A stretch of DNA of 20,988 bases from a virus, in the IMG/VR virus record IMGVR_UViG_3300021138_000204, positions 1-20,988 of that record; one strand, given 5' to 3'. Below are positions 2,038 to 18,595 of this stretch, piece by piece (position 1 is the stretch's first letter; each line of letters starts with the position of its first letter). Below the pieces are notes generated by a model. That model did not search any database and was not told the origin of the DNA. It saw only the letters and a list, made by a program, of their open reading frames with translations. Made by a program: the position numbers and the translations under genes.

Positions 2038-2802
2038 ATGCGCAGGGATATGAATAAAGTTATTGTGGAGCGTCCTCGACGTCCGGGATTTGACACCCAC
2101 AGCCGGGCTCGGCCACAGGACCTGGATTTGCAAGTGAGCCACGAGGGCATGCGGGCGCCGCACGTTCGCCACTGGGGTGGCAAAGAACTCAACGAAAATT
2201 TGGCACCTCTGCTGCGTTTCCTGGGTAGTCGTGTGGGCAGGGTTTGGAACGATGTTTTTAGCGAGATATGTGAAAACATCCGCATCACCAGCACTGTGCA
2301 AAAACATGTGCGTGATCACATCGCTCACATGGTGGCCACCCGAGTGTGGATTGACGATGCAGGCAACCCCTGGAACATGGCAGGCAGTCCCCGAAAGTTG
2401 AGCCAACAGGGTTATATCAAATACTGGGTTGATCCTCGTGATGGTATCCTCAAGCTCAACACCGCCAAAAGCTACAGGCAGCGCAATCGTGAAACTCAAG
2501 CTGAGCGACTCCGAGATGCTTACTCTCGGAGTCGCAGTCTGCCTGGTGGTATCGAGCTACGCCTGTTACACGGTATTTGGTATCAAGTCTCAATAGAGAC
2601 TATTCCGGAATCCACACAACGCTCATATACCCGTGCCGATGGCACAGTGCGAACCTGGGAAACAGGTGGCAGCGCGTATGATGTGATCTTGGAAGCCCAA
2701 GTGCAGCGTAGTCGTTATAGAGGCAGCCCCAACACCTACTGTGCCAGCAAGCGACAGCTCAGTGGCGCAGAGTTGCGCCGATATGGTGTGGCTAACCAAT
2801 AA
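2038..2802 (+). CDS. conserved hypothetical protein, function unknown
   Basis: About 254 residues, rich in Arg. It has a central segment of the form VGRVWNDVFSEICENIR followed by TSTVQKHVRDHIAHMVAT. From memory this resembles a family of uncharacterised bacterial proteins with a 'SEICE...VQDHVRDHV' core. I know of no assigned function. I chose ATG 2038 because AAGGG at 2027-2031 is 6 nt upstream; ATG 2032 lies directly against that site and is less likely. A third ATG is at 2050. No signal peptide or membrane segment is visible. It stands alone between the leader segment and the convergent endolysin gene. Confidence 0.6.
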   Translation: MRRDMNKVIVERPRRPGFDTHSRARPQDLDLQVSHEGMRAPHVRHWGGKELNENLAPLLRFLGSRVGRVWNDVFSEICENIRITSTVQKHVRDHIAHMVATRVWIDDAGNPWNMAGSPRKLSQQGYIKYWVDPRDGILKLNTAKSYRQRNRETQAERLRDAYSRSRSLPGGIELRLLHGIWYQVSIETIPESTQRSYTRADGTVRTWETGGSAYDVILEAQVQRSRYRGSPNTYCASKRQLSGAELRRYGVANQ

Positions 2803-2832
2803 GTATAACTGGGATCAGCGGCAACCATTTTC

Positions 2833-2855
2833 GACCTTTACGGTCTTGTTAAAGG
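2833..2855 (+). terminator. short hairpins in the convergent intergenic gap
   Basis: Between the + gene ending at 2802 and the minus gene ending at 2882, two small alternative stems are visible: GACC/GGTC (2833-2836 with 2842-2845) and CCTTTA/TAAAGG (2835-2840 with 2850-2855). The position between convergent genes suits a bidirectional terminator, but the stems are weak. Confidence 0.25.
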
Positions 2856-2881
2856 AGAAGGTGCCGACAGGCAGCAGACGC

Positions 2882-3625
2882 TCAGGTTTTGGTTTTGATA
2901 TTCAGTGCCTGCCGGTACCAGGCATAATTGGCCGATCTATCTTCCAGACCCTGCATGCCGCGATTGATCTTGTGTGTGACGCTGCGAACATCGTTCCAAT
3001 CGCGCACCTCAGGACGAACACGATTTTTCCAAAACCACAACGCTATCCGCGCTGCCACCGCAGGCTTCGCTGCCAACTCAGGATGTTTTTCCAGTGGCAA
3101 CTTGAGCGCTGTTCCTGCTCTTCGGTAATTGTCTCTGCCTGTTAGGTGTATGAACCCACGCCCTTTGTATCTGGCGCCATCCCCGGCATTTACATTGCCC
3201 AGCTCAGCAGCTTTGGCCGGGTTGCCCTTGATGTCGTATAGATTTGTGAAATAGGCGTCGTCTCCCCGTTCAACCATGGTGTGGAACCCCATGGTTTCGT
3301 GTGCAGTTTGTGCCAGGAATGCCGCAAGTTCATCTCCGTGCATGCCAGCACGCACAGCATGCGCACGCAGGAAATTCTGTTTTACTAGGTCAGCTGTCTT
3401 GGCCGTGCCTGTTGTGACCGCAGGCACTGCCACAGGGGATTTTTTTTGATCCAGTGCAGGGGTGGCGGGCGCAGCAGGCTGGCTCACCGCAGTGGGTCTG
3501 GATAGGTCATCGGAACTCGTGGTGCCGGGATTTCCAAACATGGCGGCTGCTCCCAAGCCAGCTATGCCAGCCCACTTGGCCAGTCCTTCGTCAACTTCAT
3601 CCGGGAATAGTTCATGTAGTTTCAT
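2882..3625 (-). CDS. GH19 (chitinase-like) endolysin
   Basis: A 247-residue lysozyme-like enzyme expected to cut cell-wall peptidoglycan at lysis. The GH19 domain spans about 76-247. The first catalytic Glu is E110 in QTAHETMGF and the second is probably E119 in MVERGDDA. The substrate-groove motif YKGRGFIHLTGRDNY (153-167) is typical of phage GH19 endolysins. The N-terminus (MKLHELFPDEVDEG) is followed by a hydrophobic Ala/Gly stretch (about 16-31) and a Pro/Ala-rich linker (about 44-70). I chose ATG 3625 because MKLHEL matches leaders of other proteins here. An in-frame upstream ATG lies inside the palindrome at 3627-3640. No Shine-Dalgarno is visible, so the mRNA may be leaderless. A tiny lipoprotein at 4471 could be a lysis partner. 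Confidence 0.85.
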   Translation of the reverse strand: MKLHELFPDEVDEGLAKWAGIAGLGAAAMFGNPGTTSSDDLSRPTAVSQPAAPATPALDQKKSPVAVPAVTTGTAKTADLVKQNFLRAHAVRAGMHGDELAAFLAQTAHETMGFHTMVERGDDAYFTNLYDIKGNPAKAAELGNVNAGDGARYKGRGFIHLTGRDNYRRAGTALKLPLEKHPELAAKPAVAARIALWFWKNRVRPEVRDWNDVRSVTHKINRGMQGLEDRSANYAWYRQALNIKTKT

Positions 3626-3626
3626 G

Positions 3627-3640
3627 ATGATATTTATCAT
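3627..3640 (-). promoter_or_regulatory. palindromic TGATAAATATCA box between divergent genes
   Basis: The near-palindrome ATGATATTTATCAT reads ATGATAAATATCAT on the minus strand. The core GATAAATA resembles the T4 late promoter TATAAATA. On the minus strand it ends 1 nt before the endolysin ATG; on the + strand it is 10 nt before the ATG at 3651. The same core flanks the divergent genes at 8209-8244. It is probably a shared late promoter. Confidence 0.5.
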
Positions 3641-3650
3641 AAGTATTGGT

Positions 3651-4232
3651 ATGAAGATAAGCGAATTGGAACGCAACACCATCAAGCCACATCAAGTTGT
3701 GACCACAGGATCCCGACCACGGAGGCCACCCGAATGGCATCTGGGCTCGTGGGATGTGTTTCAGAGAGAAAGCGCCGGCACCATTTACGCTGATGTATTT
3801 GATCACAACCGCAAGATTTTGGAAAGTATATTTGTCACACAGCGATGGGCTGATGAAGAATTCTACTGGCCAGTACCAGGCATAATATCACGCACTGTGG
3901 AAGTGAACAAAGCCTATCAGGGTCAAGCCATTGCGTTGTCATTTTACCGGGAATTGATTGTGAACCATGGCACCAACATCTACACCAATTACAGCCAAAG
4001 TGTGGGAGCCAGAAAGATGTGGGCAAGATTGAATCAAGATGCTGCCATCAATGTGTATGTGCTAGATGGCACCCACAAAAAAGTGTATAAACCCACAGTG
4101 ATAAACTCAGAACTTGCCCTAGGCAACCAGGATATCTACTCGGAAGCCACTTTCAGCTTGTGTGCTGTTGCTAGAGGAAACCCAGCAGATAACCAATTGA
4201 AATCTTTGATGAAAAAACAAGGGAACACATGA
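3651..4232 (+). CDS. GNAT-like protein with MKISEL leader
   Basis: A 193-residue protein beginning MKISELERNT. The segment about 85-127 reads like the core of a GNAT acetyltransferase: VNKAYQGQAIALSFYREL as the acetyl-CoA loop and helix, then IYTNYSQSVGARKMWARL as strand and helix. Similar degenerate GNAT-like domains occur in other T4-like phages. The canonical Q/RxxGxG/A pyrophosphate loop is only partly kept (YQGQAIA), so activity is uncertain. The start at 3651 is preferred over longer in-frame extensions because those run backwards through the endolysin gene and because the leader matches other genes here. No Shine-Dalgarno is visible. It begins a tightly packed operon with 4229 and 4471, each junction overlapping as ATGA. 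Confidence 0.55.
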   Translation: MKISELERNTIKPHQVVTTGSRPRRPPEWHLGSWDVFQRESAGTIYADVFDHNRKILESIFVTQRWADEEFYWPVPGIISRTVEVNKAYQGQAIALSFYRELIVNHGTNIYTNYSQSVGARKMWARLNQDAAINVYVLDGTHKKVYKPTVINSELALGNQDIYSEATFSLCAVARGNPADNQLKSLMKKQGNT

Positions 4233-4710: not shown

Positions 4711-4792
4711 GGACGTAACGCCAAGTGGGTCGGCACCGGTCTCATAAACCGACGCGAAAGCAGGGTTGGTTCGATTCCAACTGCGTCCACCA
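4711..4792 (+). tRNA. tRNA-Met (anticodon CAT), enlarged variable loop
   Basis: Acceptor GGACGTA pairs with TGCGTCC, followed by A and encoded CCA. The D-stem is GCC/GGC with GGG in the loop. The anticodon stem is CGGT/ACCG with loop CTCATAA, giving CAT at 4743-4745; the outermost pair (C-A) is mismatched. The T-arm is GTTGG-TTCGATT-CCAAC. The variable region (4753-4764) is 12 nt, longer than the usual 4-5 nt. CAT could also be a tRNA-Ile2 that needs lysidine modification; that cannot be decided here. Confidence 0.85.
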
Positions 4793-4934
4793 AGACAGGT
4801 AAGAGCAGCAATGACCCAACACCTCCTTTCACTAGTTGGGTAGTGTCAGAGGCAGCTCACAGCGCCGGCGGAGAGTGGGGCCAGGTGTTGAAGCTTATAT
4901 AGGCAGGTGCGATACACCGTAAGACCTGTAATAT
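4793..4934 (+). other. structured spacer between tRNA-Met and tRNA-Leu
   Basis: This 142-nt gap lacks a recognisable tRNA but has strong pairing: ACCCAAC with GTTGGGT (local hairpin), CAACACCT with AGGTGTTG (long range), and ACAGGT near 4795 with ACCTGT near 4924 enclosing the whole. It is co-transcribed with the tRNAs and may be a processing spacer, a decayed tRNA or a small RNA. Confidence 0.3.
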
Positions 4935-5011
4935 GCCCGGGTATCCCAATTGGCAGAGGAGACGGTCTCAAAAACCGTATGTTGTCGGTTCGAATCCGAC
5001 CCCGGGCACCA
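4935..5011 (+). tRNA. tRNA-Leu (anticodon CAA) with short variable loop
   Basis: Acceptor GCCCGGG/CCCGGGC is perfect, followed by A and encoded CCA. Anticodon stem ACGGT/ACCGT encloses CTCAAAA, so the anticodon is CAA (codon TTG). The T-arm is GTCGG-TTCGAAT-CCGAC. The D-loop keeps TTGG, and the D-stem has one mismatch. The variable loop is only 5 nt (ATGTT), whereas bacterial tRNA-Leu normally has a long variable arm. The discriminator A fits leucine, but charging identity is open. Confidence 0.85.
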
Positions 5012-5016
5012 GCTAC

Positions 5017-5092
5017 AGGGATGTGGTGTAACCCGGCAGCACAGAAGACTTTGAATCTTTTAGTTCTTGTTCAAATCAAGGCGTCCCTGCCA
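5017..5092 (+). tRNA. tRNA-Gln (anticodon TTG)
   Basis: Acceptor AGGGATG/CGTCCCT, discriminator G and encoded CCA. The D-stem is GTGT/GCAC with a GG-containing loop. Anticodon stem GAAGA/TCTTT encloses CTTTGAA, giving TTG (codon CAA). The T-arm is TCTTG-TTCAAAT-CAAGG. All arms are normal in size. It begins 5 nt after tRNA-Leu and is the last tRNA of the operon. Confidence 0.88.
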
Positions 5093-5149
5093 ATTTTACT
5101 ACGAGTCTTTCGTGGTTGCTTTATATTGCTAATATCGTAACATCTCTTC

Positions 5150-5503
5150 CTATACAAACGGATCCGTGATAACCAGAACTCCGCCACGTCGCATGAAGTT
5201 TCCACTGTGTAGGTCAAAGTTGATTACCCCATGAGCTTTGGCGTAATTTACAAGATCTTGACATAGGCCGATCCATGCTGGCGTGACCTTTCCCAATTCA
5301 TTCTGGATGGTTTTGAGGTTGGTAGAGGGATCCCAGAATGGGATCCCTCGATCTTTGAGAAGATTAATAATTATCCGGCTAAGGCGATGCCCAAGCGACC
5401 TTGTCTTTTGTTGACTGCCAATCCAGGCCAAAGTAGCTAGCTGAGCAATGTAGTGAGTCAACAAGGTATTTTCATCAACCGGCTTGAGCGTTTCCATTCT
5501 CAC
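5150..5503 (-). CDS. kinase-fold protein, C-terminal fragment
   Basis: This is the third piece of the broken kinase gene, 117 residues if translated alone from GTG 5503. It carries the catalytic loop HGVINFDLHSGNFM and the metal-binding ITDPF near its end. Without the N-lobe it could not bind ATP. The GTG overlaps the stop of the middle fragment (ATGTGA), so reinitiation is conceivable. Confidence 0.5.
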   Translation of the reverse strand: MRMETLKPVDENTLLTHYIAQLATLAWIGSQQKTRSLGHRLSRIIINLLKDRGIPFWDPSTNLKTIQNELGKVTPAWIGLCQDLVNYAKAHGVINFDLHSGNFMRRGGVLVITDPFV

Positions 5504-5691
5504 ATACGACCATCCCCCGGCAGATTTCTCACATATCGATTGAACCGAGGCAGATATGGGTTAGGTTGATGGTTTTGAACAAACTCTACAAATTGAGAAT
5601 ATCGGCTGCTATTGCGATAGAGCTTGATTACGTAGGGCCGGTTGGGATGCTGGGCCACGGCTCCCCGAGGCCGGACCCTATCACCTTCCAT
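5500..5691 (-). CDS. kinase-fold protein, N-lobe fragment
   Basis: Middle piece of the broken gene, 63 residues if started at ATG 5691. It holds the ATP-lysine strand (PYVIKLYRNS) and the following helix. The residues before GAVAQHP in this frame (MEGDRVRPR) are probably out-of-frame reading of the Gly-rich loop, so the ATG is likely not a true start. Confidence 0.35.
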   Translation of the reverse strand: MEGDRVRPRGAVAQHPNRPYVIKLYRNSSRYSQFVEFVQNHQPNPYLPRFNRYVRNLPGDGRM

Positions 5692-5772
5692 CCGTGTTTG
5701 ACCAATATGTTCCGTGGATCGTAATTAGTTTCGAGATCATGTCGAAGTACAAGTTCTTGAATTTTCATGATT

Positions 5773-6360
5773 TTATAACGGCCAAGAAATGTTCGTCAAC
5801 AACCCCAACAAGAACAAAGCAATACCGATGCAGCCAGCTGAGATTCCCACCCACAGGAACGCCATGCTCACCGCCAAGATGCTGCTGGATGCCAGAACAA
5901 TGCCTATCTGCAGACCAGTGCTGGCTGCGCTGAACCACGCACCTTTCTTTTTGGCAGCATCGCGCTCATCTTCCAGCTTGTGAGCCTTGGTCATGAGCTC
6001 TTGTTTGCCTTCTCCCGACACTGGATCGCTTTCGTATCGTTCCACTGTGATGCGAGTCTGGGCAAGTTTATTTGTGATGGCAGTGCGTTGTATATTAGTG
6101 AGGTTGGGGTCAAGTAACTGAACTTCCAAGTCTGCCACCGTTTGTTCAAACACAGCTTGTTTTATACTCTTGGCTTGGTAGAAGTTCCACATGTCGTTTG
6201 AGCTCAACGTGCCGTTCAGCACACGGCTGCTGTAACTGTTGCCCACCATGGCACACAACGCCAACACCGCAGCACAAATGCTGATAACAACACTGGCTCG
6301 ACTTTTCATTATGGCTTCGCCTTCGCTACGACTCAGCACCTTCCCTGTTTTGTCTTTCAT
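5773..6360 (-). CDS. DUF4337-like membrane protein
   Basis: A 195-residue protein starting MKDKTGKVLSRSEGEAIMK. There is a membrane segment at about residues 20-36 (VVISICAAVLALCAMVG) and two more near the C-terminus, with a coiled, charged middle. The segment NDMWNFYQAKSIKQ resembles the DUF4337 family signature; its function is not known. The start at 6360 is set by AAGGAG about 8 nt upstream on the coding strand, and longer in-frame extensions cross the promoter inverted repeat. The kinase-like gene follows after 4 nt. Confidence 0.65.
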   Translation of the reverse strand: MKDKTGKVLSRSEGEAIMKSRASVVISICAAVLALCAMVGNSYSSRVLNGTLSSNDMWNFYQAKSIKQAVFEQTVADLEVQLLDPNLTNIQRTAITNKLAQTRITVERYESDPVSGEGKQELMTKAHKLEDERDAAKKKGAWFSAASTGLQIGIVLASSSILAVSMAFLWVGISAGCIGIALFLLGLLTNISWPL

Positions 6361-6377
6361 GAGGTAACTCCTTGTTT

Positions 6378-6445
6378 TGAGATATTTAGTCTTTGCCGTG
6401 CAAGCCTGTGAGATCTTGCTGCGCAGCAGTTTACTAAATATCTCA
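6378..6445. promoter_or_regulatory. divergent late-type promoter pair in a 13-bp inverted repeat
   Basis: TGAGATATTTAGT (6378-6390) and ACTAAATATCTCA (6433-6445) are exact inverted copies separated by 42 nt. Read outward, each arm gives ACTAAATATCTCA, with a TAAATA core like the T4 late promoter. The left arm faces the DUF4337 gene and lies just ahead of its AAGGAG. The right arm faces tRNA-Arg. This symmetrical layout matches the pair at 8209-8244. Confidence 0.55.
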
Positions 6446-6486
6446 GCTCGACATTGTCTCGATGCTGTTGTAATATCTGGAAATAG

Positions 6487-6563
6487 GCCCTGGTAGCTCA
6501 AATGTATAGAGCTGGTCCGTCCTAAGGACAAGGTTGGGAGTTAGAATCTCTCCCAGGGCGCCA
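6487..6563 (+). tRNA. tRNA-Arg (anticodon CCT) with altered elbow
   Basis: Acceptor GCCCTGG/CCAGGGC is perfect, then G and encoded CCA. The D-stem is GCTC/GAGC. Anticodon loop GTCCTAA gives CCT (codon AGG); the outermost stem pair (G-A) is mismatched. The T-arm is GGGAG-TTAGAAT-CTCTC. Position 56 is A instead of C, and the D-loop AAATGTATA has GT where GG is usual, so a T19-A56 pair could replace G19-C56. Confidence 0.85.
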
Positions 6564-8266: not shown

Positions 8267-11200
8267 ATGAAGTTATTCAAAATACTGGAAAGCCGCCTAC
8301 TGGACCAACCTACGAAAACCCCCGAACATATTGCACAAGAGCAAAATGTGCCAGTCGCTCAGGTAATGAAATCCCTGAAAGCGGGCATTGCGGTGGAGCA
8401 AGAGCACACAAGTGATATTGGTGCGGCTCGCGAGATAGCCCTGGACCACTTGGCTGAGCGCTGGGATTATTATGATGTGCTGGCCCGGGCAGAGAGCAAC
8501 ACGGTCACAGAAGCACCTGTGCCTGGCACACAGTTTGTCACGCTTGATGCCGCACAGATCCAGGAAGGGTTGACTTATCTGGAAGGGTTGTCAGAACAAA
8601 TCAGTGACGAAAGCACGGAGTATGATGACGAAAACCGCCCCGACATCTACCGAAAATTGGAACGAGACCACAGAGCGGTTACTGCCGTGCAGACTGTGAT
8701 GCAAAACAATCTTAGAGCCATGGCCGATCCCCATCTGGGAGCCAACAGCATCTTTCTCTACGACGTGGACGACAGTGATCTCAGTTACATGGACTTTGTG
8801 GGGGCCATTCATGTGGTGCTGGAGGACCGCGTGGCCGAGGTCAAGTGGATTGGCAGCTACGGCGCCAACGGTGGTGGACTTCTCAAGGCAGCAATGAAGA
8901 TCGCCAAGCAGCGAGGCGCCACCAGCATGAAACTGGATGCCAAGTGGGAGAGTGAAGGGTTCTATACCAAAATGGGGTTCCAGCAAACTGGGCCATCGGT
9001 GAGCCAGCCCCTGAGCGGCAGCCAACTCACACCGTTCAGCAAGGAACTGGACGAAGTGGCCATGAGCCCCAACGCCTTGAAAACCTGGGTAAGACAAAAT
9101 TCCAACGTGATAAACAATGTCACCATGGGATTTGAAGCCGAAATGTGCGTGCCCGATCTGGCGGGGTCGGAAGACGATGACGAGCTGGAATTGGATTACC
9201 GCGAGGACGAATTCATCAGCAACTACAACTGGCACCAAGATATAAAAAACTTCTTTTTGGGGGGTGAGAGCCCAGACCTCCGCCGCGATATCCAACGGGC
9301 AATTGATGCCTGCGAGGAGGACATAAACGACTGGATATCAGATGACATGCAAAAATCGATTACAAAAGCTGACGTCCTAGAGCGCATACGCAGTAACAAT
9401 CCAGACCTAAGCACCCAAGAGATCACGGACGAATATGAAAACCAGGGTGCAGAACATGACACTGCCATGGAAGAACTGATCCAGGAATATTACGAAAACT
9501 GGGAATTTGACGACTGGGGCAGCCCAAACAACTGCCGCAAAATGAGTCAGTTTGCCGACAGATACGATCTATCATGGCCCTATTGGCGGGAAAGCGCTCG
9601 GACTAAGAATAGTGACTACAGCTACAGCGAACTGGCTGACAGTTGGACGAGTTCATCGGGATATAAGAGCACTGCCAGCACTGGATATCACAGTACCAAG
9701 CGTCAACCTGATCTTTGGATATTTGAGCCCGACAGCAGCATAACGCCTGACGACAGCGATGATGGTGGTGTGGAAATGGTGAGCCCGCCCATGCCGTTTC
9801 AGGATGGCATAGCCGCATTGACTAAATTCTTTGCCTGGGCCCAAACCGCCGGCGCCTATGCCAATCAATCATGCGGCTTCCACATCGGAGTCAGTTTGCC
9901 ATTGGAGATGCAAAAAGCCATAGATCCTGTGAAATTGTTGCTGTTTCTGGGTGATGAACATGTGTTGGCTCAATTTGGTCGCAGTGCCAATACCTATGCT
10001 CGCAGCAGCATGAAAACGCTGCGAAACAAATTAAGTGAGTTGCCCGGTCTAAAAAACAGCAACCCCCAAGATGGCATGGCAGTTGTGAAAAGGATCCTGG
10101 CTGACCCAGCTCGCGGCTGGATGGAGCAACTACTCAACAACAGTGACCGCTATGTCAGTGTCAACATCAAAGACAACTACATTGAATTTCGCAGCGCAGG
10201 CGGCGACTACTTTGAAAAACAGCAGGAAATTTTCAACACTGTGATGCGTTATGTGAGAGCCATGACCATTGCAGCCGATCCTCAAGAGGAAAAGCAGGAA
10301 TATCTCAAAAAACTCTACAAGTTGTTGGCTGGCAGCATCCAGCAGAGTGCTAATCCTATTGGTGCGTTTATGAGATATGCCGCAGGCCAGATAACTCGTG
10401 ACGAACTGTTGAAAATTATACAACAGAAAGCACCAAGTAAGCCCAAACTTGACTCAACCCCCAAACCAACAGGCACAGCGGTACCCGCGGATTGGCAGCA
10501 TTATGAAATATTACGCGCTAGTGACGAATTCAAAGTGCATGAGTTCCTGGCACCCAACCCCAGCGCTGCGCTGGAAAAGAAAGCACAGTGGGCGTCCGAA
10601 TCAGGTGTAAAGAACAGTGATTACATATTGCGACGGCCATCTACAACGCCGGTTGCAGAAAACTTCGCGGATGGTAAGGGTCCGGGTCGGCCCGGCGACA
10701 GCCAGCGGCACGGTATCCCGAAAAATGCCACCATTGCTCAGCTTGAGAAGGCAGCCAAATCCAAAGGTCGCAAAGGCCAGCTGGCACGGTGGCAGATCAA
10801 CATGCGCCGAGGTCACCACAAGGAAAGCCTACAAGAATTATTTGATCCCGACAACTTGCCTCGAGACATAGAAATCGACCTGGTTAATGAGTATCCTGAT
10901 GAAAAAAGATGGAACATTGTGAGAGAGGGCAAGCAGCGATGGCGGCTGGATATTGGAACAAGCGAGGAACCGGGAGTTTGGGAGGTGTCATTTCTCGCCC
11001 TTGGTAGTGACAGGTCATGGGAAATAACCGGCGGTGGCGGCGCTCCGCAGATATTTGCCGCCGTGGGTGCTGTTTTGTATCAAGAAGCTCAAAAAAACTC
11101 TGAAATCCAAGGTTATTTGTTTACAGCCAAAGAACCCAGCCGAGTCAAGCTATATAAAGTTCTCAGTAAAAAACTCAGCCAACAGTTGCACTGGGTTTAT

Positions 11201-11914
11201 GATCCCCAATTGGGAGAAGTGCTGAGAGATTGGGCTGACGAACAGGTATTCGCCATTGTTAGCCCTGCCAAGTATCGACAAGTTTCGGGATATTTCCAGG
11301 ACACTGATGTTGCTGAAGCCACACAACCGTCAGCTCAAACGGGCGCGAGTCTGACTGTCTGGGATATCGATGACACCCTGATGCACACAGCAGCGCGTGT
11401 GTTTGTTGTGGAACCCAGTGGTCGTCGACGCCAACTATCACCATCTGAGTTCAACAGTTACGATTTGCGTCCTGGCGAACATTATGACTTCTCAGAGTTT
11501 CAAAATTCTCAGTTGTTCTATGACACCAGCAAGCCAATTGAAAAGATTTGGCGCACAGCTCAAAACACCTTGGCCAACATAGGAAAACGCCCCGGCAGTC
11601 GCATGATCATTGTGACAGCACGATCAGAGTTTGACAACACAAGCTTGTTTCTCAAGACCTTTGAGAAACATGGCATGGACATGAGCAAGGTCAAAGTCTA
11701 CACTGTGGCAGGTGCCAGCAACAAAAAACCACTGATCCGGAGATTGCTGGACAAGGGGCAGTTTACGGAATGTCGCCTATTTGACGATCATCCCGGCAAC
11801 TTGCAAGATTTCCTCAGCTTGCATCAGGACTTTCCGGAAATCAAGCTCAAAGCATTTCCAGTGGGACACAACGGTGCCGTGGGCAACCCTGTTATTTTGG
11901 GTGGACAAAAATGA
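8267..11914 (+). CDS. 1215-residue multidomain protein (DUF5661-like, GNAT, amidoligase, HAD)
   Basis: Domains in order, by motif. Residues 18-74 are DUF5661-like (EHT...AREIALDHLAE...YY). About 165-242 is a GNAT acetyltransferase core (GANGGGLLKAAMKIAK, then EGFYTKMGFQ). About 284-690 is an amidoligase: GFEAEM (288-293), CGFHIGVSL (536-544) and YIEFRSAGG (638-646) match the Glu, His and Arg motifs of that ATP-dependent peptide-bond-forming family. A basic segment follows (803-848, GPGRPGDSQRHGIPK), then an alpha/beta domain of unknown type (about 860-1002). A HAD phosphatase ends the protein (1029-1205): DIDDTL at 1033-1038, T1117, and FDDH at 1172-1175. The leader MKLFKILES resembles other leaders here. 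The protein may be cut into parts by the prohead protease. Its role is unknown; modification of host or virion proteins is an inference. Confidence 0.7.
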   Translation: MKLFKILESRLLDQPTKTPEHIAQEQNVPVAQVMKSLKAGIAVEQEHTSDIGAAREIALDHLAERWDYYDVLARAESNTVTEAPVPGTQFVTLDAAQIQEGLTYLEGLSEQISDESTEYDDENRPDIYRKLERDHRAVTAVQTVMQNNLRAMADPHLGANSIFLYDVDDSDLSYMDFVGAIHVVLEDRVAEVKWIGSYGANGGGLLKAAMKIAKQRGATSMKLDAKWESEGFYTKMGFQQTGPSVSQPLSGSQLTPFSKELDEVAMSPNALKTWVRQNSNVINNVTMGFEAEMCVPDLAGSEDDDELELDYREDEFISNYNWHQDIKNFFLGGESPDLRRDIQRAIDACEEDINDWISDDMQKSITKADVLERIRSNNPDLSTQEITDEYENQGAEHDTAMEELIQEYYENWEFDDWGSPNNCRKMSQFADRYDLSWPYWRESARTKNSDYSYSELADSWTSSSGYKSTASTGYHSTKRQPDLWIFEPDSSITPDDSDDGGVEMVSPPMPFQDGIAALTKFFAWAQTAGAYANQSCGFHIGVSLPLEMQKAIDPVKLLLFLGDEHVLAQFGRSANTYARSSMKTLRNKLSELPGLKNSNPQDGMAVVKRILADPARGWMEQLLNNSDRYVSVNIKDNYIEFRSAGGDYFEKQQEIFNTVMRYVRAMTIAADPQEEKQEYLKKLYKLLAGSIQQSANPIGAFMRYAAGQITRDELLKIIQQKAPSKPKLDSTPKPTGTAVPADWQHYEILRASDEFKVHEFLAPNPSAALEKKAQWASESGVKNSDYILRRPSTTPVAENFADGKGPGRPGDSQRHGIPKNATIAQLEKAAKSKGRKGQLARWQINMRRGHHKESLQELFDPDNLPRDIEIDLVNEYPDEKRWNIVREGKQRWRLDIGTSEEPGVWEVSFLALGSDRSWEITGGGGAPQIFAAVGAVLYQEAQKNSEIQGYLFTAKEPSRVKLYKVLSKKLSQQLHWVYDPQLGEVLRDWADEQVFAIVSPAKYRQVSGYFQDTDVAEATQPSAQTGASLTVWDIDDTLMHTAARVFVVEPSGRRRQLSPSEFNSYDLRPGEHYDFSEFQNSQLFYDTSKPIEKIWRTAQNTLANIGKRPGSRMIIVTARSEFDNTSLFLKTFEKHGMDMSKVKVYTVAGASNKKPLIRRLLDKGQFTECRLFDDHPGNLQDFLSLHQDFPEIKLKAFPVGHNGAVGNPVILGGQK

Positions 11915-13401: not shown

Positions 13402-15099
13402 GTGTCTTATATTGATGCATTTGTAGATAGAGAAAAGAATATCGTGCATGTGGTGGAGAGAACTCCCCAGGGCGAACGAAAGTTTGTCACACATCCCACA
13501 CAATATGTGGTCTATTGGCCACAAGAAACCGGAAAATACACCAACATTTTTGGTGACAAACTCAATAGATTTCGCACCACACGAAATCAGGAGTTTCAGC
13601 GTGAGATTCGCATGCTGCCGCAGGGCAAACTCTTTGAGAGTGACATCAATCCCATGTTTAGATGCTTGTATCAAAATTATCGCGATGTGCCCAGCCCCAA
13701 CTTGCATGTGGGCTTCTTTGATATTGAAGTTGATTTTGATCCCGATCGTGGATATAGTGCTGCTGACGAAGCATTCAATCCCATCACCGCCATTAGTGTT
13801 TATCTCAACTGGATGAAGCGCTGCTTTACACTGGTCCTAAAGCCGAAAAAATGGACCATGGCTGACGCTCATGCAGTGTGTGAACAGTTTCCCGACACGG
13901 TGTTGTGTGAGACCGAGCATGAAATGCTGGACATGTTCCTGAGCTTGATTGAAGATTGCGATGTCATAAGTGGCTGGAACAGCAGCACATACGATATCCC
14001 CTACGTTTACAACAGAATCATACAACAGTTGGGCAAAGAACAAACTCGCCGCCTGTGTTTGTGGAACAAACTGCCTGTCAAGCGGGAATTCTTGAACTAT
14101 GGCAAGAAGCAAGTCACATATGAACTGCAAGGCCGTGTGCATCTGGACTACTTGGATCTCTATCGCAAGCACACATACCAGGAACTGCACAGTTACAAAC
14201 TTGACTTTGTTGGTGAAATTGACACTGGCGAACGCAAAGTGCCCTATGAAGGCAGTCTTGACGCACTATACAACAAGGACTTTAAAAAGTTCATTGAGTA
14301 TAACCGACAGGACGTCATGCTGTTGGTCAAGATTGACATCAAACGACGTTTGATTGAGCTGTGCAACAACTTGGCCCATCAAAACTGTGTGCTGTTGGCC
14401 ACAACTCGCGGCAGTGTGGCGCTGATTGACCAAGCCATTGTCAACGACGCCTGGGATCAGGGTTTGGTTGTACCCAATCGCCGAACTGAAGAAGAGCCTG
14501 AAGATGCAGGTGATTTCAACATGGGCGACGAGGACGATGATGACGACGGGCCTGAAGAGAAACACGGCATTGTGGGGGCATATGTTGCTGATCCCAAAAA
14601 GGGCATGCACGAGCACATTGGCGGGGTGGACATCACCAGCCTGTATCCATCAGACATTCGTGCCCTGAACATGAGTCCCGAAACCATCGTGGGCCACATC
14701 AGACCCGAATACACAGACAAACTGATACGCAAGCGCATGCATCAGGAAAAGCGAAAGTTTGCCGAAGCATGGAACGGATTGTTCAGTACTCTGGAGTTTG
14801 CCGAAGTTCACAACCGCAGCGACATGCCACTGGTGGTGGATTTTGAAGAGGGCGTTACAGTTACAGTAACAGCAGCAGAGATGTATAAACTGGTGTTTGA
14901 TAGCAAAAAGCCCTGGATACTCAGTGCCAATGGCACCATCTTTACAACTGAAAAACTGGGTATTATCCCGGGTCTACTGGCTCGCTGGTTTGCAGATCGC
15001 ATGAAAATGCAAACGAAAATGAAAGAAATTGACAAAATAAAAACTGGCATCGAAATACCTGAGGAACTGCTTGAAAGTGTGAAGAAATTACTTTCGTAA
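13402..15099 (+). CDS. 43A: DNA polymerase gp43A (exonuclease domain and palm motif A)
   Basis: 565 residues forming the N-terminal half of a T4-like family B DNA polymerase. The 3'-5' exonuclease motifs are Exo I FFDIEVDFD (D107, E109), Exo II GWNSSTYDIPY (N193, D198) and Exo III YNRQDV (Y300, D304). Polymerase motif A is DITSLYPS (D410). An acidic insert (about 363-387) precedes motif A. After the fingers start (ANGTIFTTEKLGIIPGLLARW) the frame stops at EELLESVKKLLS, before motifs B and C. GTG 13402 is the start, with AGGAG 6 nt upstream; an out-of-frame ATG overlaps it. Motifs B and C lie in gp43B, 1.2 kb downstream beyond an HNH gene. Split gp43 genes that work as two chains are known in Aeromonas T4-like phages. 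Confidence 0.9.
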   Translation: MSYIDAFVDREKNIVHVVERTPQGERKFVTHPTQYVVYWPQETGKYTNIFGDKLNRFRTTRNQEFQREIRMLPQGKLFESDINPMFRCLYQNYRDVPSPNLHVGFFDIEVDFDPDRGYSAADEAFNPITAISVYLNWMKRCFTLVLKPKKWTMADAHAVCEQFPDTVLCETEHEMLDMFLSLIEDCDVISGWNSSTYDIPYVYNRIIQQLGKEQTRRLCLWNKLPVKREFLNYGKKQVTYELQGRVHLDYLDLYRKHTYQELHSYKLDFVGEIDTGERKVPYEGSLDALYNKDFKKFIEYNRQDVMLLVKIDIKRRLIELCNNLAHQNCVLLATTRGSVALIDQAIVNDAWDQGLVVPNRRTEEEPEDAGDFNMGDEDDDDDGPEEKHGIVGAYVADPKKGMHEHIGGVDITSLYPSDIRALNMSPETIVGHIRPEYTDKLIRKRMHQEKRKFAEAWNGLFSTLEFAEVHNRSDMPLVVDFEEGVTVTVTAAEMYKLVFDSKKPWILSANGTIFTTEKLGIIPGLLARWFADRMKMQTKMKEIDKIKTGIEIPEELLESVKKLLS

Positions 15100-15100
15100 T

Positions 15101-15110
15101 TACTAAATAG
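15101..15110 (+). promoter_or_regulatory. TAAATA late-type promoter for the HNH gene
   Basis: TACTAAATAG lies immediately after the gp43A stop, with the core CTAAATA ending 21 nt before the HNH ATG. It matches the CTAAATA boxes at 4693, 6379 and 6435. In T4 the intron endonuclease I-TevI is also expressed from its own late promoter, which keeps it separate from early host-gene expression. Confidence 0.45.
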
Positions 15111-15130
15111 TTTATACGGAGGCATTACGA

Positions 15131-16327
15131 ATGAAACTATCGGAAATCAAAACATTGCTGGAACAAACCCTGCATATTAGGTCCCAATTACATTTTGACC
15201 GATATATCAAGTTTGTCGAAAGCTTTGTAGAGCTAAATCTATCCAAACCCAATGGCAGTTGTGGTGGGTTTGAAACTCACCACATACTTCCAAAAAAAAT
15301 TTTTCCGGAATTTACCACAAGCCGGTGGAACAAGATAATAATGCCATCGAAGGCACATTATCTAGCACATTACCTATTGTTCAAAGCCATTGCTCATCCT
15401 AGTCTTGTTTACTCGTTCAACCAAATGAGAAGAGTATCCAAGAAAGCCGGAAAAGTCAATTGTAGACTATATGCCGCAGTGAGACAAGAATTCGCTGAAT
15501 TGATCCGACAGACCAATACCGGTAAAGTCCGTTCCGAAAAATTTCGAAATGATGTGTCAGCACGAACGATCGGAAAGAACAATTATCGTAATGACAAAAC
15601 ACAAGAGGTTAAAAAATTTCCGGTAGGGCAACAACCGGAAGGATGGGTTCCATTCCAAAAAGGTCGAAAAAGAACTGACGAATCAAAAGACAAGATAACA
15701 GAGATAATGACCGGCAGGATCTGGCAGTATAACGAACTGACCCAAGAAGTTAGATTTGAAAAATCTCTATTACCAGGATTTGTACAAGGTTATCCTGATT
15801 GGTACGACACAAGTAAAGATTACTTGAAGTCTCTCAGTTGGGCATATAACTCTGATACCGGGGAAGTTGTTCGAGTCAAAAAAGAAACCGTACTGCCAGA
15901 TGGATTTATCCTAGGACGAAATTACAACAATGTCGGATTCACTGCAATCAATAACGCCCAAGTAGCCAGAGTTGTTGATTTACAGGAGAAAGAGTTCTGC
16001 ATGGTACCATCCAACATACTTCCTCATCCTAGGTATATCAAATCTGGATCCTCCATAGACAATGTCTGCTTATTTGTTTATAATAACATAGTATACACGT
16101 CATATAAAGATTTGATTGAGATGAATCCGGAACTTCCTGACCTAGGAGTTCGAAACACTGATTTGTCATCAAGACTGGTTCCAAAACCACACTTCAATAT
16201 GACCGATCTGAGGAAAGAATTTTGCACAAAGAACCAGGGACTCACCATGAATACCATAGGCCTAACGGTCCTTCAACTATCTCAATTCAAATATCAGGAG
16301 GATGTAATATATGTTAGACGTAAGTGA
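15131..16327 (+). CDS. free-standing HNH homing endonuclease
   Basis: 398 residues. The HNH core is H50-H51 in FETHHILPKKIF, N67 in RWNKII, and H76/H80 in KAHYLAH. The C-terminal half holds at least two repeats of the form W-x-YN-x-x-TxEV...LPxGF...G (IWQYNELTQEV near 198 and SWAYNSDTGEV near 243), with a weaker third copy (KTQEVKKFPVGQQPEGW). These are probably DNA-binding modules. A good site (GGAGG) lies before ATG 15131. The leader MKLSEI resembles other leaders in the window. The gene is visibly A/T-richer than its neighbours, as expected for an acquired element. It separates gp43A from gp43B, and its last 17 nt overlap the gp43B start. It has its own start and stop, so it is not an intein. 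Confidence 0.85.
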   Translation: MKLSEIKTLLEQTLHIRSQLHFDRYIKFVESFVELNLSKPNGSCGGFETHHILPKKIFPEFTTSRWNKIIMPSKAHYLAHYLLFKAIAHPSLVYSFNQMRRVSKKAGKVNCRLYAAVRQEFAELIRQTNTGKVRSEKFRNDVSARTIGKNNYRNDKTQEVKKFPVGQQPEGWVPFQKGRKRTDESKDKITEIMTGRIWQYNELTQEVRFEKSLLPGFVQGYPDWYDTSKDYLKSLSWAYNSDTGEVVRVKKETVLPDGFILGRNYNNVGFTAINNAQVARVVDLQEKEFCMVPSNILPHPRYIKSGSSIDNVCLFVYNNIVYTSYKDLIEMNPELPDLGVRNTDLSSRLVPKPHFNMTDLRKEFCTKNQGLTMNTIGLTVLQLSQFKYQEDVIYVRRK

Positions 16328-17793
16328 AATAGAATCTGCAATCGAAAGTGGTGATGCAGATAAATTAGCAAGTCTTGTCAAGACTTACAATTTGAAAATC
16401 AAGGAGGGACGAATTACAGCCGATTTGGATGTTTCCAAGCAATATGAAGCGTATTGGGACCAAAGGCAACTAATTCAAAAGATTCTCCTAAATTCGTAAA
16501 AATTGCGACCCAAGCAGGCAACTGTTTGATGAAAACCGCTCTAATTGCTGGAAACTCCCTTCTGGGACAATCAGCAGCCAAGCCTGGAAACAGGAAGGTT
16601 CAACGACTAGATCGAAAGATCGTAGATCCAAGTGGATCGAAATGGGTGGCATCCCTCTGGGATGGTGATATAGTCTCCTCTGCATAGTAATATGCAGCAG
16701 CATTTCGAATGCGGAACAGAACTAACGACTCTGTTTGAAGATAAAGGTATACGGCGCTATTGGCAATGCTGGTTCCAGGTTCTTCGATGAGCGCATTGCT
16801 CAGAGTGTGACACTGACTGGTCGCTGCATTGCGCGTCACATGGGCAGTAAAATCAATGAGCTGATAACTGGTCTATACGATCACACTGGCGATGCACTCG
16901 TATATGGTGATACCGATTCCGTTTATTTCTCAGCGTATCCTGTGATGCGAGGCCAGCCGGAGTTTGCAGACTTTGACTGGAGCCGTGAGAATGTCATTGA
17001 TTTGTATGACAAAATTGCAGCGCTGACAAATGAAAGCTTTCCTGTCTACATGAAGGCAGCCTTCAACTGCCCTGATACAAACGGCAAACTGATTAAAGCT
17101 GCCCGAGAATTGTGTGCAAGCCGTGGCATCTTTATCAAGAAGAAGCGTTACGCAGTGTTGATCTTTGATAAAGAAGGCAAGCGCAAGGACAAAAACGGCA
17201 GTGCGGGTGAAATCAAGGCTATGGGCTTGGATCTCAAGCGCGCAGACACGCCCAAGATTGTGCAGGACTTTCTCAGTGCAGTGTTGCTGAACTTGCTCAC
17301 AGGCACCACGCAGGAAGATCTCATGACACAAGTTGCAGAATTCCGCAAGGTTTTCTCCGACTGGCCCGGCTGGGAAAAAGGCACGCCCAAACGTGTAAAC
17401 AAGCTGAGCTATTATCGAGATGCCAAAAAGAACAACGAAACATTGGTATGGGGTACAAAATCCAAACGTGTGAACTTGCCAGGCCACGTGCTGGCCAGCC
17501 TAAACTGGAACCAACTCAAGAAGTTGTATGCCGATCATGGCTGCATGGAGATACAAGACGGGGCCAAGGTGATTGTGTGTAAATTGCGTGACAATCACCT
17601 GGGCATGACCAGCGTGTCTTATCCCATCGATCAGGACCACTTGCCCGATTGGTTCAAACAGTTGCCGTTTGATCATGAGGCCATGGAGACTGCACTTATT
17701 GACAAAAAAGTGCATAATCTACTATCGGTATTGGGATGGGATTTATCCCAAAGCAAACGGGACAGCAGTTTTGACAGCTTGTTTAGCTTTTGA
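16311..17793 (+). CDS. 43B: DNA polymerase gp43B (spliced: 16311-16497 + 16748-17793)
   Basis: A 410-residue C-terminal half of the polymerase. Exon 1 starts at ATG 16311 with CAGGAGG at 16297-16303, inside the end of the HNH gene. It codes for fingers residues and YWDQRQLIQKILLNS. Unspliced, it stops at once (TAA at 16497-16499). Joining T16497 to T16748 makes a Leu codon and restores polymerase motif B, LLNSLYGAIGN (N61-S62-L63-Y64-G65). Exon 2 carries motif C, VYGDTDSVYF (D117, D119), the thumb, and a C-terminal SSFDSLFSF that resembles the clamp-binding tail of T4 gp43. The total frame (187 + 1046 nt) is a multiple of three. The product must pair with gp43A to give an active enzyme; this is inferred from known split gp43 proteins. 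Confidence 0.88.
16498..16747 (+). ncRNA. group I self-splicing intron (250 nt, no ORF)
   Basis: All four conserved core elements are present in order. P is AATTGCTGGAAA (16543-16554). Q is AATCAGCAGCCA (16569-16580). R is GTTCAACGACTAG (16598-16610). S is GATATAGTC (16667-16675). P1 forms between the exon end TCGT and GCGA (16505-16508), giving the required U-G pair at the 5' splice site (T97-G05). The intron ends in G16747 as expected. P9-type hairpins follow S: CTGCATA-GTAA-TATGCAG (GNRA-type loop) and GCATT-TCG-AATGC. Splicing restores polymerase motif B exactly. The intron has no reading frame of its own; the nearest endonuclease is the HNH gene about 170 bp upstream. Confidence 0.93.
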
Positions 17794-17851: not shown

Positions 17852-18595
17852 ATGAGTATCAAAGACTACATCAAGGACCTCAACACCTACGTGGCCAGCA
17901 GCGGCTTCTTTGAGAAGATCAAGATCACTGCCGGCAAAAAGGAAATCCTGGTGGAAGCCATGGACAAGGACAAGGAAGTAATCTTCAAGGGCAAGTTCAA
18001 CGATCCGCTTGATGAACTACAGGGTGAGTTTGGTCTCAGCAACCTCAACCTCCTGAACACCATTGCCAACGATCCACAATACACACACGAAGACAGTGTG
18101 ATCACAATCGAAACAGAGTCACGCGATGGTGAAACTGTGCCGGCCACGCTGGGCTACCGCAATGCCAGTCAGAGTGAGCTCTATTATCGCTTCATGGGCA
18201 AGGCACTGGTGCCCAATCAGCCCAAGTTCCAGGAACCCAAGTGGGATATTGTGATCAAGCCCACCAAGGCCAACATTCAGCAGTTTGCCTGGGCAGCAAA
18301 TGGTCTAAGTGCCTACGAGCAATATTTCCAACCTGCTGTGAAAGACAAGACTCTGCGCTTCTTCATTGGCGAGGATGGTGCTCAGACACAGCGCGGCGGC
18401 GTGGTGTTTGCAACTGATGTTGATGCCACATTCAACTGTGACCACAAGTGGAAGATCAGTGATGTGCAGAGCATTCTCAAGTATGCTGACACAACCGAGT
18501 GCGAGATGGCTTTCAGCACCAAGGGCGCAATCCAGATCACACTCAAGACTGGCTTGGCTGAGTGGAAATATATTCTCACAGCAAAGGTGAAGTAA
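17852..18595 (+). CDS. 45: sliding clamp, gp45-like
   Basis: 247 residues; T4 gp45 has 228. The order of segments matches T4-type clamps: an N-terminal domain with FNDPLDELQGEFGLSNLNLLNTI resembling the gp45 'DLNGFLGILSLV' region (here the insert is split for length), then PNQPKF, and a second domain with FAWAANGLSAYEQYF, and the final EWKYILTAKVK. The trimer encircles DNA and tethers the polymerase through its C-terminal tail; in T4 it also activates late transcription. AAGGAA precedes the ATG, and a strong promoter lies at 17796. It is followed by a hairpin terminator. Confidence 0.85.
   Translation: MSIKDYIKDLNTYVASSGFFEKIKITAGKKEILVEAMDKDKEVIFKGKFNDPLDELQGEFGLSNLNLLNTIANDPQYTHEDSVITIETESRDGETVPATLGYRNASQSELYYRFMGKALVPNQPKFQEPKWDIVIKPTKANIQQFAWAANGLSAYEQYFQPAVKDKTLRFFIGEDGAQTQRGGVVFATDVDATFNCDHKWKISDVQSILKYADTTECEMAFSTKGAIQITLKTGLAEWKYILTAKVK

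Follow-up and report, generated by a model that had tools for sequence, protein, structure and literature searches.

In the 20,988-base IMG/VR virus fragment analyzed here (the window), the T4-type DNA polymerase gene gp43 is encoded as gp43A, an HNH gene, and gp43B, and gp43B is itself interrupted by a group I intron. The HNH gene, the tip of the polymerase fingers encoded on either side of it, and the intron appear to move as one unit of ~1.7 kb, because they make up a single foreign tract in the window and a mirror-image tract shared by two other phages (loci L172 and L209). Judged by these sequence comparisons, the two elements were acquired jointly in at least two lineages.

The virus is a large T4-like bacteriophage, and its gp43 belongs with those of the T4-type jumbo-like phages; the closest isolates are Sinorhizobium phage Phosso (50% identity, exon 2) and Agrobacterium phage Atu_ph07 (47%). 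The gp43 features described here all lie on the plus strand. The N-terminal chain of this family B polymerase, gp43A (positions 13402..15099), spans the exonuclease, palm motif A, and the first fingers arm, and it matches phrog_262 at 8e-113. The HNH gene (15131..16327) follows after 31 nt and overlaps gp43B by 17 nt. From its start codon at 16311, gp43B exon 1 (16311..16497) encodes the second fingers arm and the start of motif B (..ILLNS plus the first base of Leu), and exon 2 (16748..17793), which matches the C-terminal half of phrog_262 at 8e-66, encodes LYGA.., motif C (GDTDS), and the thumb. The ribosome-binding site of gp43B, AGGAGG (16296..16301), sits within the 3' end of the HNH gene; this SD-ATG arrangement is common to the relatives and is kept in one of them (L220) despite deletion of most of the HNH gene. 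All coordinates of the preliminary description of this DNA hold. Elsewhere in the window, the gene after gp43B (17852-18595) matches phrog_12062 (unknown function), and a similarly placed Phosso gene is annotated as a sliding clamp. A 1215-aa open reading frame (ORF) at 8267-11914 contains DUF5661, amidoligase-like, and polynucleotide-kinase-like stretches, and four tRNA genes, for Met (cat), Leu (caa), Gln (ttg), and Arg (cct), are found at 4711-6563.

Both interruptions are real insertions, since the window's nearest relative, L002 (94% amino acid identity over the aligned core), encodes gp43 without either of them. The preliminary description took gp43 to be broken by a free-standing HNH gene, and profile matches to both gp43 halves and to the HNH gene agree with it; the alignments with L002, RaK2, and Phosso likewise bear out its expectation that gp43 is continuous across the HNH gene in homologs. 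As in other split T4-type gp43 genes, two ORFs jointly cover an uninterrupted homologue, here RaK2, Phosso, L002, and the halves of phrog_262. Alignment to T4/RB69-type polymerase structures and the known domain layout indicate that the break interrupts the fingers and that the intron falls within motif B. In RaK2 and Phosso the fingers are one chain, and the gp43A tail plus the gp43B head align with them over their full length, with all conserved residues present; the window's fingers are accordingly predicted to be divided between two chains, as had been supposed. Atu_ph07 has its gp43 split at this position as well, the two parts being separated by a gap of 18 nt that holds no endonuclease. 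From GIIP to LYG, the fingers measure 63 aa in L002 and about 111 aa in the window; short fingers are the rule among the window's near relatives, and its own long fingers resemble those of RaK2 and Phosso. The idea that the split arms form a new assembly domain was rejected, since the unsplit RaK2 and Phosso polymerases have the same long fingers; the arms seem new because the comparison was with short-fingered relatives.

No intein halves were found at the HNH break, where the gp43 halves align directly with uninterrupted fingers, and a fractured gene with a split intein (Dassa type) was therefore rejected for this site. Nor did 15000-16480 yield a second intron (no Rfam match up to E = 1). 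Intein-like sequences were seen at gp43 motif C (GD/TDS or nearby) in L030 (4480-6912), L023 (2412-4969), L082 (2079-3736), and L083 (5680-7437). In L030 and L023 they are split in the manner of a fractured gene, the two halves lying on either side of an endonuclease-like ORF, and L030 combines a split, an intron, and a split intein in one polymerase gene. In L010 (2869-7044), a probable intein of ~400 aa lies in the gp43 exonuclease domain, within a single 1391-aa ORF.

The product of the HNH gene (398 aa, Mob/NUMOD-like) is identified as a Mob-type homing endonuclease from its profile match, predicted fold, and invariant residues. The ORF matches the homing endonuclease family phrog_655 (1.5e-25) and, weakly, NUMOD3, and its HNH residues (HH..P...WN...H...H) are invariant in an alignment of 7 sequences. 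Among viral folds, its structural model (pLDDT 71, moderate confidence) comes closest to phage HNH/Mob homing endonucleases, including MobE-named entries. Searches with the protein gave no PDB match by sequence or fold, no confirmed relative in bacterial genomes, and, among isolates, no relative covering 80% of the query. Directly 5' of the gene is a T4-late-promoter-like box, CTAAATA (15103..15109, plus strand), and in 7/7 loci examined a [CA]TAAATA box precedes the HNH start by no more than about 35 nt. This putative late box suggests that the HNH gene may be expressed independently of gp43. T4-late-promoter-like TAAATA boxes also stand directly 5' of motif C endonuclease ORFs (L209, 7957; L216, 8122).

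The second interruption is a group I intron of 250 nt without an endonuclease ORF (16498..16747). The Rfam model RF00028 matches positions 16488-16697 at 83.6 bits (gathering score, 50), and the match includes the conserved core (P3-P8). The preliminary description had placed this intron in motif B of gp43B with a splice junction at T16497/T16748, which proved exact: the intron ends at G16747, and the predicted ligated exons, AATTCGT/TATACGGC (slashes mark junctions), restore the reading frame as ...LLNS/LYGA.... In P1, exon UCGU pairs with intron GCGA, giving a U.G pair at the 5' splice site; this pair, the terminal G, the in-frame exons, and the conserved pairs are all as expected of a group I intron. 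Nine related gp43 introns have the same splice sites (TC[GC]T/A...G/TNTA), and the alignment with these nine relatives reveals compensatory changes in 38/71 predicted intron pairs. The covariation extends to P1, where a G-C pair formed by 5' exon and guide sequence is changed to C-G in L021 and L216. From this structure and covariation, self-splicing would be expected to remove the intron from the RNA. In intron-bearing genes TC[GC]T precedes the splice site, but only 3/87 intron-less genes have it there, a rarity which argues that the intron takes its 5' exon along when it moves. Introns are found repeatedly at three closely spaced sites within about 12 bp of motif B; the L211 intron, to judge from the frame and the CGT before it, is about 3 nt downstream of the window site. 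The motif B of L290 gp43B, which is split and has no intron, reads AATTCGTTATACGGC, the same as the window's ligated exons, which may mean that an intron was lost or that the site is unoccupied. Vibrio phages D181 and D148, the strongest isolate intron match by coverage, were set aside, as the annotated neighbors in D181 are not gp43.

The case for joint movement comes from identity along the locus. Between the window and L002, which ends within exon 2, nucleotide identity along the coding sequence runs 0.92 / 0.56 / 0.92; it changes at 15012 and again at 16748, the base that directly follows the intron (LR 110.7). The inferred mobile unit (15012..16747, plus strand), foreign relative to L002, comprises the gp43A fingers tail, the HNH gene, the gp43B fingers head, and the intron. 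At its right edge, window and L002 differ at 19/46 nt just 5' of the intron site and at 9/150 just 3' of it (Fisher p = 6e-8), nearly all amino acids being kept on the 5' side despite the mismatches. On that side the window is identical to phages with HNH gene and intron at 34-37/46 positions, versus 27/46 for L002, and L002 is identical to unsplit relatives (L003, L009, L023) at 35-40/46; on the 3' side, window and L002 agree at 57/60 nt. Because the window's 5' side resembles HNH-and-intron phages, while unsplit members of its clade resemble L002, the window is the recipient. This kinship with L002 is near in gp43 and not over the whole contig, identity dropping to 0.4-0.75 upstream of 13000.

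L172 and L209 are the mirror image, with identities of 0.71 / 0.94 / 0.67 (LR 212). Their similar stretch runs from the gp43A tail, about 4 nt from the equivalent of 15012, to 7 nt past the intron; the introns are 97% identical, the HNH genes have a dS of 0.20 and a dN/dS of 0.23, and identity in exon 2 is 69%. In a control pair without interruptions, L003/L009, the signal was weak and lay elsewhere (LR 20 vs 111 and 212). L021/L216 was rejected as a third transfer pair, since identity is 0.93 in the intron and only about 0.7 in the HNH gene, with no recent joint transfer. Two tracts with shared ends are what joint inheritance with co-conversion of the flanks would leave, and recombination without cleavage would also fit. 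The preliminary description's further proposal, that the window captures two stages of invasion, has to be given up: one foreign tract extends from 15012 to the 3' end of the intron, and L172 and L209 share the same unit. The transfer also replaced the fingers tip, which is short in the near relatives and long in the window.

We gathered 101 polymerase lineages (98% identity clusters) by polymerase, HNH gene, and intron searches; lineage and locus counts come from pattern scans and are lower bounds, and the key loci are metagenomic contigs, except Providencia phage PSTCR6. Of these at least 101 lineages, 17 are split and 84 unsplit, and the intron occurs in 11/17 split and 0/84 unsplit lineages, an association (Fisher 8e-11, or 1e-6 without intron-pattern loci and the window) that is uncorrected for phylogeny. 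On a quick polymerase tree, the split changes at least 9 times and the intron at least 6 times. A tree-aware test of whether split and intron go together, based on a small number of independent pairs, points in the expected direction (p 0.03-0.25) and is no more than suggestive.

A query with the HNH gene only returned 12 IMG/VR loci, 11 with the gene at the same place in a split gp43 and one, L215, too short to tell. In all 11 informative loci except L217, the intron lies 170-190 nt downstream of the HNH gene. HNH gene and intron occur together in the window, L021, L172, L209, L211, and L216; the pair is thus present in at least five other distinct lineages and is not a one-off. L217 has the HNH gene without the intron, and L112 has the intron with a truncated HNH-like remnant. 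In L220 (1182 bp shorter than L172) and L082, the HNH gene is deleted, with split and intron kept. L030 pairs the intron with a minus-strand Vsr/EDxHD-like endonuclease (named Vsr-like from sequence reading, not from a profile match), and L083 pairs it with another type of minus-strand endonuclease-like ORF. L022, L271, and L290 are split, with other genes and no intron. The coupling of HNH gene and intron is therefore not absolute, because L030, L082, L083, L112, and L220 lack an intact HNH gene, L217 lacks the intron, and the L211 site is shifted. The relatives show separate stages, although the window's two elements came together.

In Acinetobacter Lazarusvirus, gp43 is also broken at the fingers, by a distant relative of the window's HNH gene (about 28% identity), but on the opposite strand; no group I intron was found in the Lazarusvirus loci. 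PSTCR6 (MW057858.1) has, like the window, a split gp43, a related HNH gene (24% identity), and a group I intron in motif B (71.8 bits). It differs in that its HNH gene is on the opposite strand and its intron lies about 12 nt further downstream (LYGA/LGN, from the frame and preceding CGT). Within its locus (L206; MW057858.1 24329-31279), this arrangement, at 2276-4005, is unannotated as such, with exon 1 listed as a hypothetical protein of 58 aa.

We regard collaborative homing, with the HNH enzyme cutting motif B, as the best fit to these patterns and as somewhat more likely than not. The locus would then be a composite selfish unit of ~1.74 kb, made of the HNH gene and the endonuclease-less intron with the fingers tip between them; as with F-CphI of cyanophage S-PM2, a free-standing endonuclease gene stands beside an endonuclease-less intron. 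The enzyme is probably made late, from its own promoter, when the phage meets an uninterrupted gp43, and would cleave the recipient's copy at the conserved motif B or right beside it. Donor-templated repair would copy the gp43A tail, HNH gene, gp43B head, and intron between the nearest stretches of homology, a step to which the tracts point. The intron would splice itself from the RNA, the polymerase would form from two assembling chains, by analogy with 43A/43B of phage 25, and the intron presumably also abolishes the cut site in the donor.

Alternatively, the HNH enzyme may home alone, cutting elsewhere in gp43, with the intron hitchhiking in the co-converted flank. The HNH genes without introns in L217 and Lazarusvirus would fit, and the intron, only about 170 nt from the HNH gene, is within reach of co-conversion. 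However, the right tract end coincides with the 3' end of the intron or falls 7 nt past it, suggesting that the break was at the intron site, and the recurrence of introns at three positions so close to motif B also speaks against hitchhiking, which we consider unlikely. Ordinary homologous recombination could instead have swapped the fingers region, with endonuclease and intron as passengers and neither driving transfer. The tracts end at the edges of short-/long-fingered homology, so ordinary recombination would give similar ends; phage gp43 is mosaic, and the similarity of window and L002 varies along the contig. Yet the endpoints are common to two independent tracts, the tree shows repeated changes in both split and intron, and the HNH gene is under purifying selection (dN/dS 0.23), as expected of an active endonuclease; we consider passive exchange improbable. 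That the HNH gene split the polymerase and the intron entered motif B later and separately is very improbable: relatives with a single element (L217; L030, L082, L220) indicate that the two were once separate, but in the window one continuous foreign tract holds both, and the exon between them is also foreign.

T4 nrdB carries an intron and, unlike the window gp43, is not split by an endonuclease gene. Group I introns with HNH enzymes (I-HmuI, I-BasI, and I-PfoP3I) are known from other phage DNA polymerase genes (see also PMC3428280). There, the HNH gene lies within the intron, whereas in the window it lies outside, as a separate interruption of a family B gene. In T4, the free-standing Mob-type endonuclease MobE mobilizes the nrdB intron, whose own endonuclease is defunct or absent (trans homing; PMC2988022), and the window would follow the same scheme. 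F-CphI and the psbA intron of S-PM2 likewise combine a free-standing endonuclease gene with a nearby endonuclease-less group I intron (PMC6083498); their joint spread has been proposed, with the endonuclease cleaving alleles that lack the intron close to where it inserts (PMC6083498). F-CphI is of the Endo VII-motif family and lies beside an unsplit, intron-containing psbA, whereas the window enzyme is HNH/Mob-like and is encoded inside the coding region, splitting the gene, so that part of the host protein would belong to the mobile unit. According to the summary of Petrov 2010 in PMC2988022, gp43A and gp43B of Aeromonas phages 25 and 44RR are separated by an endonuclease gene or spacer; the same source reports that the split chains of phage 25 together make up an active polymerase.

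Each of the components has precedents: gp43 genes that are split, whether or not they harbor an endonuclease; HNH enzymes of the Mob type; phage introns lacking an endonuclease; and homing in trans or by collaboration (PMC2988022, PMC6083498, PMC10448857). Our literature search, mostly of open-access coverage, turned up no report of a family B polymerase gene that combines an intron with an endonuclease split. The parts are of known kinds, and their pairing in one family B gp43 is a new variant. The preliminary description thought the combination unusual; its presence in other lineages and in PSTCR6 means that it is not peculiar to the window. Endonuclease turnover has been proposed as the origin of such loci (PMC10448857), and L030 and L083 fit this proposal. 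More tentatively, we suggest that the HNH gene, intron, and fingers tip form a recurrent cassette with fixed ends and that successive endonucleases may take over the same intron, because split and intron persist while the endonuclease in the break is deleted or gives way to unrelated types (L030, L083).

Mobile introns could, it has been proposed, acquire endonucleases through collaborative homing, an idea that rests on few cases. The relatives described here provide a graded series at one site: empty, HNH gene only, HNH gene with intron, HNH gene decayed or deleted, and HNH gene replaced. This series, together with two clean tracts and an isolate counterpart in PSTCR6, makes the collaborative homing model testable.
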